A model generated the notes under the pieces. That model saw only the letters and a program-made list of their open reading frames with translations. It was not told the origin of the DNA and searched no databases. 56,155 bases of DNA from Acidimicrobiaceae bacterium. Lineage in GTDB: Bacteria; Actinomycetota; Acidimicrobiia; Acidimicrobiales; Aldehydirespiratoraceae. The stretch is from assembly GCA_028819005.1 (NCBI GenBank), contig JAPPMP010000005.1:137147-193301 (forward strand), in the 5' to 3' direction. Made by a program: the position numbers and the translations under genes. Of the stretch, positions 26,870 through 45,134 are shown in pieces (the stretch's first letter is position 1; each line of letters begins with the position of its first letter).

Positions 26870-29683
<2,814 letters not shown>

Positions 29684-40933: not shown

Positions 40934-41509
40934 TCAGCCGCGGTCTTCGGGGAGGTGCCGAAGCTGGTATTTCGCGGGATTGGTCCAAGCTCCGGTTTCG
41001 GCGTCGAACTGTGCCGCGGCGAGGGTCATCTGATCGGTGCGCCCGGCACGTGCGGCTGTGGACGAGACTTCAAGCAGGTCGTCGGGCACCGGCAGTTGTA
41101 GCGCTGCTGGGATCACATGCGGCGGTCTGGGAGCCAACGCAACAGTCGGCAGACGGTCGACGGCACTGTCGCGGGCTTGCGTATCATCGTTGTACCAGGC
41201 GGGATCGTTCACCTGGTGCCATTTGTCTGCACCCATGACCACGACGTCGTAGCCATCGGCGATGTCGCAGATCAGCTGCTCCTCGGTGACGACGACCGCG
41301 AGGCTCTCGTGCTCCAACAACGACTGTTCGACGACTTCAAGTCGGTGCGCGAAGCTCGGCACCTCCACTTCGGCCTTGCCCAGAGGACTCAGCGACAGCG
41401 CGAAGTCGAGCCGTTTCAGCGAATGTTGCGACACCGCGGCAAGGGCGATTGCAAGGTGCGCCCTGGTCGGCGGGTTGAACGATCCGGGATAAACGCCGAT
41501 GCGTGCCAC
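40934..41509 (-). CDS. Nucleotidyltransferase of the nicotinate-nucleotide adenylyltransferase type
   Basis: 191 residues from GTG 41509: RIGVYPGSFNPPTRAHLAIA is the nucleotidyltransferase start with TRAH in place of HxGH; VVVMGADKWHQVND lies mid-domain, and LEVSSTAARAG matches the SSTxxR ATP-binding motif. NadD adenylates nicotinate mononucleotide in NAD synthesis, but with a Thr for the first His and about 190 residues a related activity cannot be excluded. The frame is open to 41776, over the ilv leader region; the GTG directly before the fold is the likely start. Confidence 0.8.
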   Translation of the reverse strand: MARIGVYPGSFNPPTRAHLAIALAAVSQHSLKRLDFALSLSPLGKAEVEVPSFAHRLEVVEQSLLEHESLAVVVTEEQLICDIADGYDVVVMGADKWHQVNDPAWYNDDTQARDSAVDRLPTVALAPRPPHVIPAALQLPVPDDLLEVSSTAARAGRTDQMTLAAAQFDAETGAWTNPAKYQLRHLPEDRG

Positions 41510-41581
41510 TGGAAATCCGATGCTACCGAGCCGGCGCGGCGAGACAGCGCGGCAATGGCCGCGATTGCTCCGAAACCAATG

Positions 41582-41610
41582 TTGCCAAGTGGCCTCTGAA
41601 CCGCCATACT
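41582..41610 (+). promoter_or_regulatory. Promoter of the ilvBNC operon
   Basis: TTGCCA (41582-41587), a 17-bp spacer and CATACT (41605-41610), each matching the sigma70-type consensus at four or five of six positions. The start site predicted 7-8 bases downstream falls at or just before the leader-peptide GTG (41618). Confidence 0.65.
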
Positions 41611-41617
41611 TCTCGTT

Positions 41618-41662
41618 GTGAGCCTGCGCCCATTCCCCGACTTGGTAGTAGTCGTCAGCTAG
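41618..41662 (+). CDS. ilvB leader peptide (branched-chain amino acid attenuator)
   Basis: GTG AGC CTG CGC ... AGC TAG encodes 14 residues, M-S-L-R-P-F-P-D-L-V-V-V-V-S. The run Leu-Val-Val-Val-Val is the signature of leader peptides that sense branched-chain aminoacyl-tRNA supply: ribosome stalling there would prevent the downstream terminator from forming. It lies about 8 bases after the -10 box, so it is leaderless or nearly so, common in actinobacteria. Too short for ordinary gene finding. Product has no role beyond being translated. Confidence 0.85.
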   Translation: MSLRPFPDLVVVVS

Positions 41663-41697
41663 CGCACGCACGCGAGACCACAGCCGTTCGTGCGCCT

Positions 41698-41730
41698 CGA
41701 CCTCCCGGAAGGGAGGTCGTTTCGTGTTTT
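41698..41730 (+). terminator. ilv attenuator terminator
   Basis: Perfect 9-bp stem cgacctccc (41698-41706) and gggaggtcg (41711-41719) with a ggaa tetraloop, followed by tttcgtgtttt. A rho-independent terminator 36 bp after the leader-peptide stop and 46 bp before ilvB. The competing antiterminator pairing could not be resolved by eye. Confidence 0.85.
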
Positions 41731-41775
41731 CGGCCCATACTTCAATAACAACCGAGCAGAGATGCGGGATAGTCA

Positions 41776-43533
41776 ATGAGCAACAACCAACAGATGTGTG
41801 GCGGCGAGGCCTTGGTGAAGGCTCTCGAACGCGCCGGAGTCGAAGTGATGTTCGGCCTGCCGGGCGGTGCCATTCTTCCTGTTTACGACCCGATCATCGA
41901 CAGTTCGATCCGTCATATCCTGGTGCGCCACGAGCAGGGCGCGGGCCACATGGCCGAGGGTTACGCCCATGCCACTGGACGGCCCGGGGTGGTCATGGTC
42001 ACCAGCGGTCCAGCGGCCACCAACGTTGTCACCCCGCTGTGCGACGCTTTCCTCGACTCGGTTCCGATTGTCTGCATCACCGGGCAAGTCCCCTACGCGG
42101 CTATCGGGACTGATGCGTTCCAAGAATGCGACACAACCGGTATCACGATGGCGGTCACCAAACACAACTTCTTGGTGACCGAAGCCCAGGACATCCCGAG
42201 AACCATCCGCGCCGCTTTCCACATCGCCACCACGGGACGCCCCGGTCCGGTGCTCGTCGACATTCCCAAAGACATCGTCGATCCGGTGAATCCCCGGTCG
42301 GCGATGACTTGGTATGAGGCAACCGACGCTGACATGGATCTGCCCGGTTATCACCCGGTCACCCACGGTGATCCTGAACTGATCCGCGCTGCTGCAGAGA
42401 TGATCCGCACGGCGCAGCGACCCGTGCTCTACGTGGGTGGCGGGATCCTCAAATCCCGTGCCGCGGAAGCGCTGCTGCAACTGGCAGAGATGGTCCAGAT
42501 TCCCGTCGTCACGACGTTGATGGCCCGAGGAGCCTTCCCCGACAGCCACGAACTGTGTCTGGGAATGCCGGGTATGCACGGCAACTTCACAGCCGTCACG
42601 GCCATGCAGCGCTCCGACCTGCTGATCTCGTTGGGCGCCCGGTTCGACGACCGTGTCACCGGCAGGCTCGACGGGTTCGCCCCCGGCGCCAAGATCATCC
42701 ACGTCGACGTCGACCCGGCCGAACTCGGCAAGGTTCGCCGGGTCGACATCGGGATACAGGGCGACTGCCGGCTCGTCATTGAAGATCTCATCGCGGCGAT
42801 GCGTGAGATCGGCGGCGCAGAGGCACAAGTCGATCGACGAGCTTGGCGGTCCACCATCTCGGGCTGGCAGGAGAAGTTCCCGCTCGTCTATGAGCAGTCA
42901 GAGCCCGGCGAAAGACTCAAACCTCAATACGTGCTTGAAGAACTGCGTGACAACAACCCTGCGGACACCATCGTCACCTCCGGCGTCGGCCAGCATCAGA
43001 TGTACGCCAGCCAATACTGGAAGTTCGATTACCCCTACACCTGGATCAACTCGGGCGGCCTGGGCACGATGGGCTTCTCCATCCCCGCTGCCATCGGCGC
43101 CAAGGTCGGAAAACCCGACCGCCGGGTCTGGGCTGTCGACGGCGACGGCTGTTTCCAGATGACCGCACAGGAACTGGTCACCGCTTCAGTCGAGGACATT
43201 CCCATCAAGGTCGCGTTGCTCAACAACTCGTATCTGGGGATGGTCCGCCAATGGCAGGAGATGTTCTACGAGGAGCGTTTCAGCGAGGTGTACCTGTCGG
43301 AGGAGACCCCTGACTACGTCAAGTGGTCCGAGGCGATGGGTTGCGTCGGGATCCGGGTGGAGGCACCCGAAGAAGTCGCGCCGGCCATCGCCAAGGCCAA
43401 CGAGATCAACGACCGCCCGGTGGTGGTCGAGTTCCGCACCGATCCGCGCGAGAACGTCTTCCCCATGGTTCCGGCCGGCAAGAGCAACTCCGAACTCGTG
43501 GTCGATCCGAGCCAGCAGGGGCTGGAGTCGTGA
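41776..43533 (+). CDS. ilvB: Acetolactate synthase large subunit
   Basis: 585 residues. ThDP-dependent condensation of pyruvate to acetolactate or acetohydroxybutyrate, first common step to Val, Leu and Ile. VMFGLPGGAILPVYDPIIDS, RHEQGAGHMAEGYAHATGRP with catalytic Glu53, DAFQECDTTGITMAVTKHNF, SLGARFDDRVTG, GLGTMGFSIPAAIGAKVG and the ThDP-binding WAVDGDGCFQMTAQELVTAS with NNSYLGMVRQWQ are all present. ATG start at 41776 behind a weak ribosome site. Controlled by the upstream attenuator; ilvN overlaps its stop by 4 bp. Confidence 0.97.
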   Translation: MSNNQQMCGGEALVKALERAGVEVMFGLPGGAILPVYDPIIDSSIRHILVRHEQGAGHMAEGYAHATGRPGVVMVTSGPAATNVVTPLCDAFLDSVPIVCITGQVPYAAIGTDAFQECDTTGITMAVTKHNFLVTEAQDIPRTIRAAFHIATTGRPGPVLVDIPKDIVDPVNPRSAMTWYEATDADMDLPGYHPVTHGDPELIRAAAEMIRTAQRPVLYVGGGILKSRAAEALLQLAEMVQIPVVTTLMARGAFPDSHELCLGMPGMHGNFTAVTAMQRSDLLISLGARFDDRVTGRLDGFAPGAKIIHVDVDPAELGKVRRVDIGIQGDCRLVIEDLIAAMREIGGAEAQVDRRAWRSTISGWQEKFPLVYEQSEPGERLKPQYVLEELRDNNPADTIVTSGVGQHQMYASQYWKFDYPYTWINSGGLGTMGFSIPAAIGAKVGKPDRRVWAVDGDGCFQMTAQELVTASVEDIPIKVALLNNSYLGMVRQWQEMFYEERFSEVYLSEETPDYVKWSEAMGCVGIRVEAPEEVAPAIAKANEINDRPVVVEFRTDPRENVFPMVPAGKSNSELVVDPSQQGLES

Positions 43534-44021
43534 GCAATCCGGACCGGTTCCATACGATCGTCACAACGGTGGAGAACAAGCCCGGCGTTCTGGCCCGGGT
43601 GTCAGGCCTGTTCGCGCGCCGAGGCTTCAACATCGAGTCGCTCGCGGTGGCGCCTACCGACGACGAGCGCTTCAGCCGCATCACCTTTACGGTCGACGTC
43701 GAATCGGCGCCGCTCGAGCAAGTCGTCAAGCAGCTCGACAAGCTCATCAACGTGGTTGAAATCCAGGAGTTGCCGCCTGAGGACTGCGTTTCAAGAGAGC
43801 TGATGTTGGTGACCGTTGCCGCTGACGCACACCATCGGCGCGAGCTGATGGAGCTCATTGACGACTGGCGGGCGTACGTATTGGCGGAGAACACCGAGAG
43901 AATAATGATGTCGTTCTCGGCTCGTACGGCTCGGCTGGACGAGTTCGAGGAATGTCTGCGACCCTTCGGGATCGTGGAGCTTCAGCGAACCGGACGGGTG
44001 GCGCTCCCAGCGCTCGACTAG
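43530..44021 (+). CDS. ilvN: Acetolactate synthase small (regulatory) subunit
   Basis: 163 residues from GTG 43530. HTIVTTVENKPGVLARVSGL and FARRGFNIESLAVAPTDDER form the ACT domain that binds valine; a C-terminal domain (ELMLVTVAADAHHRRELMEL, FEECLRPFGIVELQRTGRVA) activates IlvB. The GTG overlaps the ilvB stop (tgtga context), so subunits are made in step. Feedback control by valine is expected for the family. 75 bp separate it from ilvC. Confidence 0.96.
   Translation: MSNPDRFHTIVTTVENKPGVLARVSGLFARRGFNIESLAVAPTDDERFSRITFTVDVESAPLEQVVKQLDKLINVVEIQELPPEDCVSRELMLVTVAADAHHRRELMELIDDWRAYVLAENTERIMMSFSARTARLDEFEECLRPFGIVELQRTGRVALPALD

Positions 44022-44051: not shown

Positions 44052-45134
<1,083 letters not shown>

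Follow-up and report, generated by a model that had tools for sequence, protein, structure and literature searches.

The trp, leu, ilv, his and thr attenuators of Escherichia coli have leader codons, a terminator and a stop codon placed near the switch, all of which recur at the locus described here; they are not leaderless, as this locus is predicted to be, and their antiterminator shares bases with the terminator. Leaderless systems are found in actinobacteria. The ilvBNC leader of Corynebacterium glutamicum starts one nucleotide from +1 (PMC11857589, citing Morbach et al., 2000), the ilvB leaders of C. glutamicum and Mycobacterium tuberculosis, with their LVVV and LVVI codons, have been shown to attenuate (PMC11857589, PMC13236596), and the ilvL, leuL and trpL leaders of Streptomyces lividans are transcribed leaderless (PMC8079986). 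A 2005 study had already described candidate leaders with terminators for several actinobacteria without deciding how regulation works (PMC1262725). Mutating the codons of the ilvB leader in Streptomyces coelicolor is reported in that source to have had no effect on regulation, which counts against attenuation. Two other kinds of element have been described, namely the LEU element of actinobacterial leuA, in which a run of leucine codons pairs with the Shine-Dalgarno box of leuA and a pseudoknot is formed (PMC1262725), and the ilvB-OMG RNA motif, with 41 representatives from various phyla and upstream ORFs rich in branched-chain amino acids and threonine (PMC10272879).

IlvL of C. glutamicum (MTIIRLVVVTARRLP; the Corynebacterium ilvB-II RNA motif) precedes the same operon as the leader studied here, with LVVV codons and a terminator before ilvB. 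As here, an upstream hairpin adjoins the terminator and a GUA valine codon is conserved (PMC11857589, PMC10272879). In contrast, the antiterminator of C. glutamicum shares three bases with its terminator and an extra hairpin covers the leader start, whereas in the present element the upstream hairpin (P1) has its first base in the stop codon and adjoins the terminator hairpin (P2) with no conserved overlap, the two systems being compared by description. The ilvB1 leader of M. tuberculosis, with its LVVI upstream ORF, shares the L-V-V codons, yields an abundant short terminated leader RNA and relies on a ribosome at the stop codon to prevent the antiterminator, which is the logic proposed below (PMC13236596); compared again by description, it differs in its 166-nt leader and in an antiterminator and terminator drawn as mutually exclusive. 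The S. lividans leaders ilvL, leuL1, leuL2, trpL1 and trpL2 are leaderless, as is predicted for those treated here, and likewise have codons that match the downstream pathway (PMC8079986). However, ilvL (MRTRILVLGKRVG) has fewer valine codons, and leuL1, the leader of leuA, is without a typical terminator, whereas the corresponding leuA leader in the present genome has both P1 and P2.

Leaderless attenuation of ilvBNC through LVVV-type codons is established in C. glutamicum and is not new. What is new is an RNA motif that spans a whole class and has no Rfam match (ilvB-OMG and ilvB-II being known here by description), together with a stop-codon-anchored P1 abutting P2, the use of one module for three operons of a genome and the strength of a bias towards the valine codon GTA. 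No report on attenuation in Acidimicrobiia was found among open-access papers, and the element would add a large class of Actinomycetota, most of it uncultured, to the known range of leader-peptide attenuation. The alignment and covariance model obtained can be used to annotate it elsewhere.

Organization of the ilvB Leader Region

The window, i.e., the whole stretch of 56,155 nucleotides that was analysed, belongs to an Acidimicrobiia genome of 3.06 Mb (G000); the IlvB proteins of the nearest named Acidimicrobiaceae and Acidimicrobiales metagenome-assembled genomes are 95-97% identical. Upstream of ilvB, the sequence reads TTGCCA-N17-CATACT, 7 nt, GTG, the peptide VSLRPFPDLVVVVS with its stop, a 9-bp terminator and then the gene itself (Table 1). 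Very probably the region attenuates ilvBNC transcription by means of a ribosome translating a leaderless leader peptide, as argued by its anatomy, its conservation, the covariation of P1 and P2, and the pathway-matched codons of three operons.

Table 1. Features of the ilvBNC leader region, in positions of the window.
Feature	Position	Strand	Basis
Promoter: -35 TTGCCA 41582-41587, 17-nt spacer, -10 CATACT 41605-41610	41582-41610	+	Sequence; kept in 41 family leaders
7-nt gap from -10 to GTG; predicted transcript start at the GTG or within 1 nt	41611-41617	+	Gap conservation
Leader peptide ORF V(M)SLRPFPDLVVVVS: GTG 41618, 14 sense codons to 41659, stop TAG 41660-41662	41618-41662	+	
Hairpin P1: GCGCACG 41662-41668 / CGTGCGC 41689-41695	41662-41695	+	Covariation
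Hairpin P2, intrinsic terminator: CGACCTCCC 41698-41706 / GGGAGGTCG 41711-41719, loop GGAA	41698-41719	+	Sequence, covariation
T-rich terminator tail, interrupted: TTTCGTGTTTT	41720-41730	+	Sequence; relatives
ilvB, acetolactate synthase large subunit, 585 aa, ATG 41776	41776-43533	+	Pfam TPP_enzyme_N/M/C
ilvN, acetolactate synthase small subunit; start approximate, inside ORF 43323-44021	43524-44021	+	Sequence reading
ilvC, ketol-acid reductoisomerase; ORF from 44073, start approximate	44100-45134	+	Sequence reading

A first-pass annotation had described the region as a complete attenuator. The promoter it named is indeed the sole promoter-like match on either strand of the 700 bases 41300-42000, where 0.2 would be expected in shuffles, and is conserved in 41 leaders. 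The proposed 14-codon LVVVV frame is present with its GTG at 41618 rather than 41617, and the 9-bp terminator stem is present and covaries, its T-rich tail being interrupted. The promoter, the leader peptide, predicted to be leaderless, and the terminator are strongly supported by comparison with relatives, but the word complete goes too far, with no conserved antiterminator sharing terminator bases having been found and with the stop-codon-anchored P1 overlooked. The same annotation considered the leaderless GTG start notable for needing no ribosome site, which is not new in view of S. lividans (PMC8079986) and of C. glutamicum (PMC11857589).

On the minus strand, a nadD-like gene (40934-41776) diverges from the leader promoter, with a cytidylyltransferase domain that begins at residue 95 of the long ORF. 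The first start of this ORF, which would make it run through the leader, is probably wrong, and a GTG near 41509 looks more likely as the start of the gene.

Promoter Spacing, Leader Peptide and Control Codons

Among the 41 family leaders, the -10 hexamer is CATACT in 35 and CATAAT in 6, the start codon is GTG in every case, and the gap between them is always 6-8 nt (exactly 7 nt in 35 leaders). With the gap fixed in this way, no ribosome binding site fits between the promoter and the start codon, and the transcript is predicted from the -10 spacing to begin at or next to the leader GTG, hence to be leaderless. In other families a -10 is again found 7-8 nt before an in-frame start at 23 of 53 loci under a strict hexamer rule, and a second group of 11 loci has a gap of 11 nt. 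At one further locus (L238), an ATG lies 5 nt past TATACT with a frame that closes at once, whereas the frame of the GTG located 7 nt away encodes a leucine leader.

As in the leaderless ilvB attenuators of other actinobacteria, a short ORF with a run of Leu, Val or Ile codons lies upstream of ilvB. Family leaders have 12-18 codons, and the control codons occupy positions -7 to -1 relative to the stop, in the leaders of leuA, leuB and cimA as well as in those of ilvB. Those of the window leader are TTG for Leu followed by GTA GTA GTC GTC for Val. Within the last seven codons, GTA accounts for 82 of 100 valine codons in the family leaders and for 150 of 195 in the class-wide leaders (77-82% across both sets), against 5 of 182 (3%) in four protein genes of the window. 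This suggests that the leader may sense valine supply through a rare codon, and the strength of the preference makes codon-specific sensing open to a direct test.

Two Adjoining Hairpins

P1 has the G of the stop codon TAG as the first base of its 5' arm and ends 2 nt before P2. Taken alone, the window is only suggestive, since terminator-like sites in the region number one against 0.6 expected by chance and the leader folds no better than shuffles (z -1.1); it is conservation in relatives that places this anatomy beyond chance. Covariation was assessed in 66 distinct class-wide sequences over 15 stem pairs, seven from P1 and eight modelled for P2. Both sides have changed in 8 of the 15 pairs (4/7 in P1 and 4/8 in P2), and 98.7% of cells remain paired (97.4% in P1 and 99.8% in P2). 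No shuffle among 500 matched any of five measures, and sliding the partner columns by 1-3 positions lowers pairing to 32-63%. These counts lean towards the family structure, because the alignment was fitted to it; the sequences from other families had no part in building the model that found them.

The loops of P1 are very variable, while for the most part P1 still starts at the stop codon or close by and lies only a short way from P2. Its mean predicted energies range by operon from about -9 to -20 kcal/mol. The arms of P2 are near-invariant in the 41 family leaders. An intrinsic terminator between leader and ilvB is predicted on the grounds of sequence and covariation. The second T run of its tail occurs in most relatives and is missing from one genus (the L044-L051 group).

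Both hairpins have arms conserved in sequence beyond what pairing alone needs. In P2, GACCTCCC/GGGAGGTC is almost invariant across the class where pairing would permit change. With a single copy in the genome, it is not a terminator word in general use there.

Occurrence of the Element

With IlvB as the query, the family yielded 46 ilvB matches from 45 genomes. Two of these matches run off their contigs, which left 44 upstream regions to read. Promoter, GTG, leader, P1 and P2 are found together in 41 of these. Loss of the codons and hairpin in close relatives that keep ilvB, which the first-pass annotation had named as a refutation, is therefore not borne out, and the outcome favours the element. 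Of the exceptions, L069 has an AT-rich upstream region with no recognisable element, and L070, the second ilvB copy of its genome (G014), has a divergent element that the covariance model still detects. The third, L010, comes from a genome (G003) of the same genus as the window genome and has no element upstream of ilvB. Its IlvB is 90% identical; the ilvB attenuator has been lost and another coding sequence, presumably gatB-like, ends directly upstream, so that this locus offers a natural deletion for comparison.

Beyond the family, the element is carried by all but a handful of the 65 class-level loci taken from the collection of named genomes. Cultured relatives that have it include Ferrithrix and Ca. 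Microthrix. The covariance model built on the family (R2) matches families outside its training set with E values of 1e-15 to 2e-4, and the class model (R3) has matches in 260 of 394 Acidimicrobiia genomes. In a sample of the phylum, R3 also matched 28 other Actinomycetota more weakly (E 2e-9 to 7e-4); the matches inspected lie before ilvB in seven cases (L215-L219, L223, L225) and before cimA-like genes in four (L220, L221, L222, L224). Three second R3 matches (L209, L213, L214) and four weak ones in the window's own genome (L229-L232) were discarded on inspection, the former as false positives and none being a leader. Rfam release 15 gave no match at the gathering score for the window and 16 related loci, and a permissive scan returned chance matches only.

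Four loci (L124, L150, L133, L115), in records titled Bifidobacterium breve, Euryarchaeota and Acidobacteria, have ilvB genes and leaders of the Acidimicrobiia type; the titles of these records are probably wrong.

Related Leaders Before leuA, leuB and cimA

The window genome has two further leaders of the same build, one before leuA and one before leuB-ilvE-cimA, the downstream genes having been named by reading translations. The leuB-ilvE-cimA leader (L227/L206; G000 contig C51:9596-9697, minus strand) encodes MGSHGPLIVIIS up to its stop, with control codons LIVII, and has TACACT, 6 nt and ATG at its start and P1 and P2 at its end. The leuA leader (L237; G000 contig C7, upstream of leuA at 27643) encodes VNCTTNLLLLL before its stop, with control codons LLLLL, behind a promoter TTGCAA-17-TTTCAT followed by 7 nt and GTG. 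It has a terminator and a 10-bp P1, GGCGAGCGCC/GGCGCTCGCC, whose first base is the final G of TAG. All six genomes of the genus have a leuA leader built in this way, even G003, where the ilvB element has been lost.

Among the Acidimicrobiia genomes, second R3 matches lie before leuB (L206, L207, L210, L211), before cimA (L208, a leader with IIII) and before leuA (L212, a leader with LLLR), and Ile codons again precede cimA in L220-L222 and L224 of other genomes. The layout is constant while the codons track the product of the operon, which is the strongest functional argument that sequence can offer here. One module can in this manner serve three branched-chain amino acid operons of a single genome.

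These comparisons bear on the most sceptical explanation, in which a plain terminator happens to follow a chance short ORF, or in which the ORF is only the reflection of a protein conserved on the opposite strand. On the minus strand, ORF 40934-41776 is open throughout the region and spans the leader, with DDYYQ opposite LVVVV, and when the window is considered by itself, the number of terminators and the folding energy do not go beyond chance. However, the element is class-wide and persists where the sequence further upstream differs, the recognisable domain of the minus-strand protein begins beyond the leader, the codons of the paralogous leaders vary with the downstream pathway, and neither the GTA bias nor the fixed -10 spacing has any reason in the other strand. 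For practical purposes the comparative data appear to refute this explanation, whose probability we consider negligible.

Proposed Mechanism and the Relation of P1 to P2

Ribosome-mediated attenuation would operate as follows. RNA polymerase would initiate at or adjacent to the GTG, and a ribosome would load on the bare 5' end and translate VSLRPFPDLVVVVS. A ribosome covers about 12-14 nt downstream of the first base of the A-site codon. When charged Val or Leu tRNA is scarce, the ribosome would stall at the LVVVV codons and, with this standard footprint, its leading edge would reach no further than the stop codon, so that P1 could fold. When charged tRNAs are plentiful, the ribosome would reach the stop codon and cover the 5' arm of P1; P1 would then not form, and P2, transcribed next, would terminate transcription before ilvB. 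As in trp-type systems, the placement of the codons and of the start of P1, at the stop codon or close to it in the leaders of ilvB, leuA, leuB and cimA, would let a stalled ribosome and one at the stop codon permit different RNA structures. Given that P1 would form only under starvation, through ribosome position, it can be regarded as the likely antiterminator, a role that we favour by a modest degree. Telling starvation from plenty is also what the antiterminator does in trp-type logic and in the models published for M. tuberculosis and C. glutamicum. How it would act on P2 is the least certain step of a scheme in which transcript start, stalling and direction of regulation are likewise deduced, and attenuation by a ribosome is held with much more confidence than the working of this last step.

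In trp-type attenuators the antiterminator and the terminator exclude each other through shared bases. The first-pass annotation had suggested RNA folding as a way to look for an antiterminator; no conserved one overlapping the terminator came out. Duplex energies between leader or inter-hairpin segments and both terminator arms do not rise above chance. In an unbiased mutual-information analysis of the class alignment, the strong pairs lie within P1 and P2, the weaker ones are scattered, and no third helix appears. Tail swaps and shuffled leaders likewise gave no conserved antiterminator sharing bases with either arm of P2. In an equilibrium occlusion series, P1 and P2 are compatible and the probability of P2 is about 1.00 at every 5' truncation, meaning that P1 alone does not abolish P2 thermodynamically. 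The lack of a conserved overlap in these tests sets the element apart from plain members of the trp type.

The main alternative is nevertheless a classical trp-type attenuator whose antiterminator sequesters terminator bases in a way that the folding tests missed, for example P1 lengthened via the leader to the base of P2 (in the window, UCG:CGA) or P2 lengthened across the P1 3' arm as far as the tail (GCG:CGT), comparable to the 3-nt overlap of C. glutamicum. There, antiterminator (36-79) and terminator (77-113) have three bases in common (PMC11857589). In the window, the leader pairs across P1 with the 5' arm of P2 at a probability of 0.81 when the 3' arm is not yet made and the core stem is fixed, and the predicted P2 of the leuA leader of the same genome includes the GCC that ends P1. 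Over 90 leaders, however, the mean of this pairing is 0.405 against 0.371 with shuffled leaders, and a conserved overlap is disfavoured because shuffled leaders pair nearly as well. E. coli attenuators taken as controls give 0.41-0.69 for upstream pairing of the terminator 5' arm, so that the measure alone does not separate kinds of attenuator. The extension into the tail was tried and rejected, since tails swapped between species cost nothing and own tails do no better (z -0.68), and the covarying columns, as stated, contain no outstanding alternative helix. An overlap of P2 with upstream pairing that is weak and unconserved is possible, and we regard the trp-type reading as a serious minority candidate.

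The reading favoured over shared bases is a positional or kinetic block. With P1 and P2 abutting at 2 nt and no conserved bases in common, a positional effect of P1 is suggested: P1 would fold first and, at the RNA exit channel, make it harder for P2 to close at its base, sequestering neither P2 arm. That P1 blocks P2 purely by position is a tentative proposal. With similar reserve, the family may be viewed as a set of leaderless attenuators, class-wide in Acidimicrobiia and scattered among other Actinomycetota, in which a stop-codon-anchored hairpin disables the adjoining terminator by its position with no shared base. Its extension, in which this positional 'doorstop', steric or kinetic, belongs to one module that serves ilvB, leuA and leuB/cimA alike and differs between them in its control codons alone, is put forward as conjecturally. 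If functional, such a non-overlapping layout would make a terminator switch with no shared bases, of a kind that attenuator finders based on overlap would miss.

The leader of E. coli trp contains a 1:2 pause hairpin, and the position of P1 matches it. Leader and terminator could accordingly be real while P1 does no more than pause RNA polymerase, so that transcription and leaderless translation keep in step, or forms the initial half of a tandem terminator; read-through would then arise by other means, such as a trailing ribosome. The stability of P1 and its compatibility with P2 at equilibrium fit this idea. On the other hand, a pause hairpin needs neither to start on a stop codon nor to abut a terminator, and control codons at -7 to -1 form the layout expected if ribosome position decides the folding of P1. 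A role of P1 limited to pausing seems unlikely.

Control through translation of ilvB or through Rho, in place of intrinsic termination at P2, would have precedents in mycobacteria. Leaderless polycysteine leaders act there as attenuators (according to a reference given in PMC13236596), and cys leaders are without an evident intrinsic terminator (PMC1262725). The interruption of the P2 tail, which is poor in one genus, would be in keeping with it. However, at nearly all loci P2 combines a covarying, GC-rich stem and a T-rich tail, its T tract is full in the paralogous leuB, leuA and cimA leaders, and it ends about 55 nt upstream of the ilvB start, which it does not cover. Such control appears quite improbable.

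Past the terminator, at window positions 41732-41745, CGGCCCATACTTC or GGCCGGTAGTTTT is kept in many family members. The segment holds a -10-like hexamer, for which no matching -35 was seen, and could represent a second promoter.
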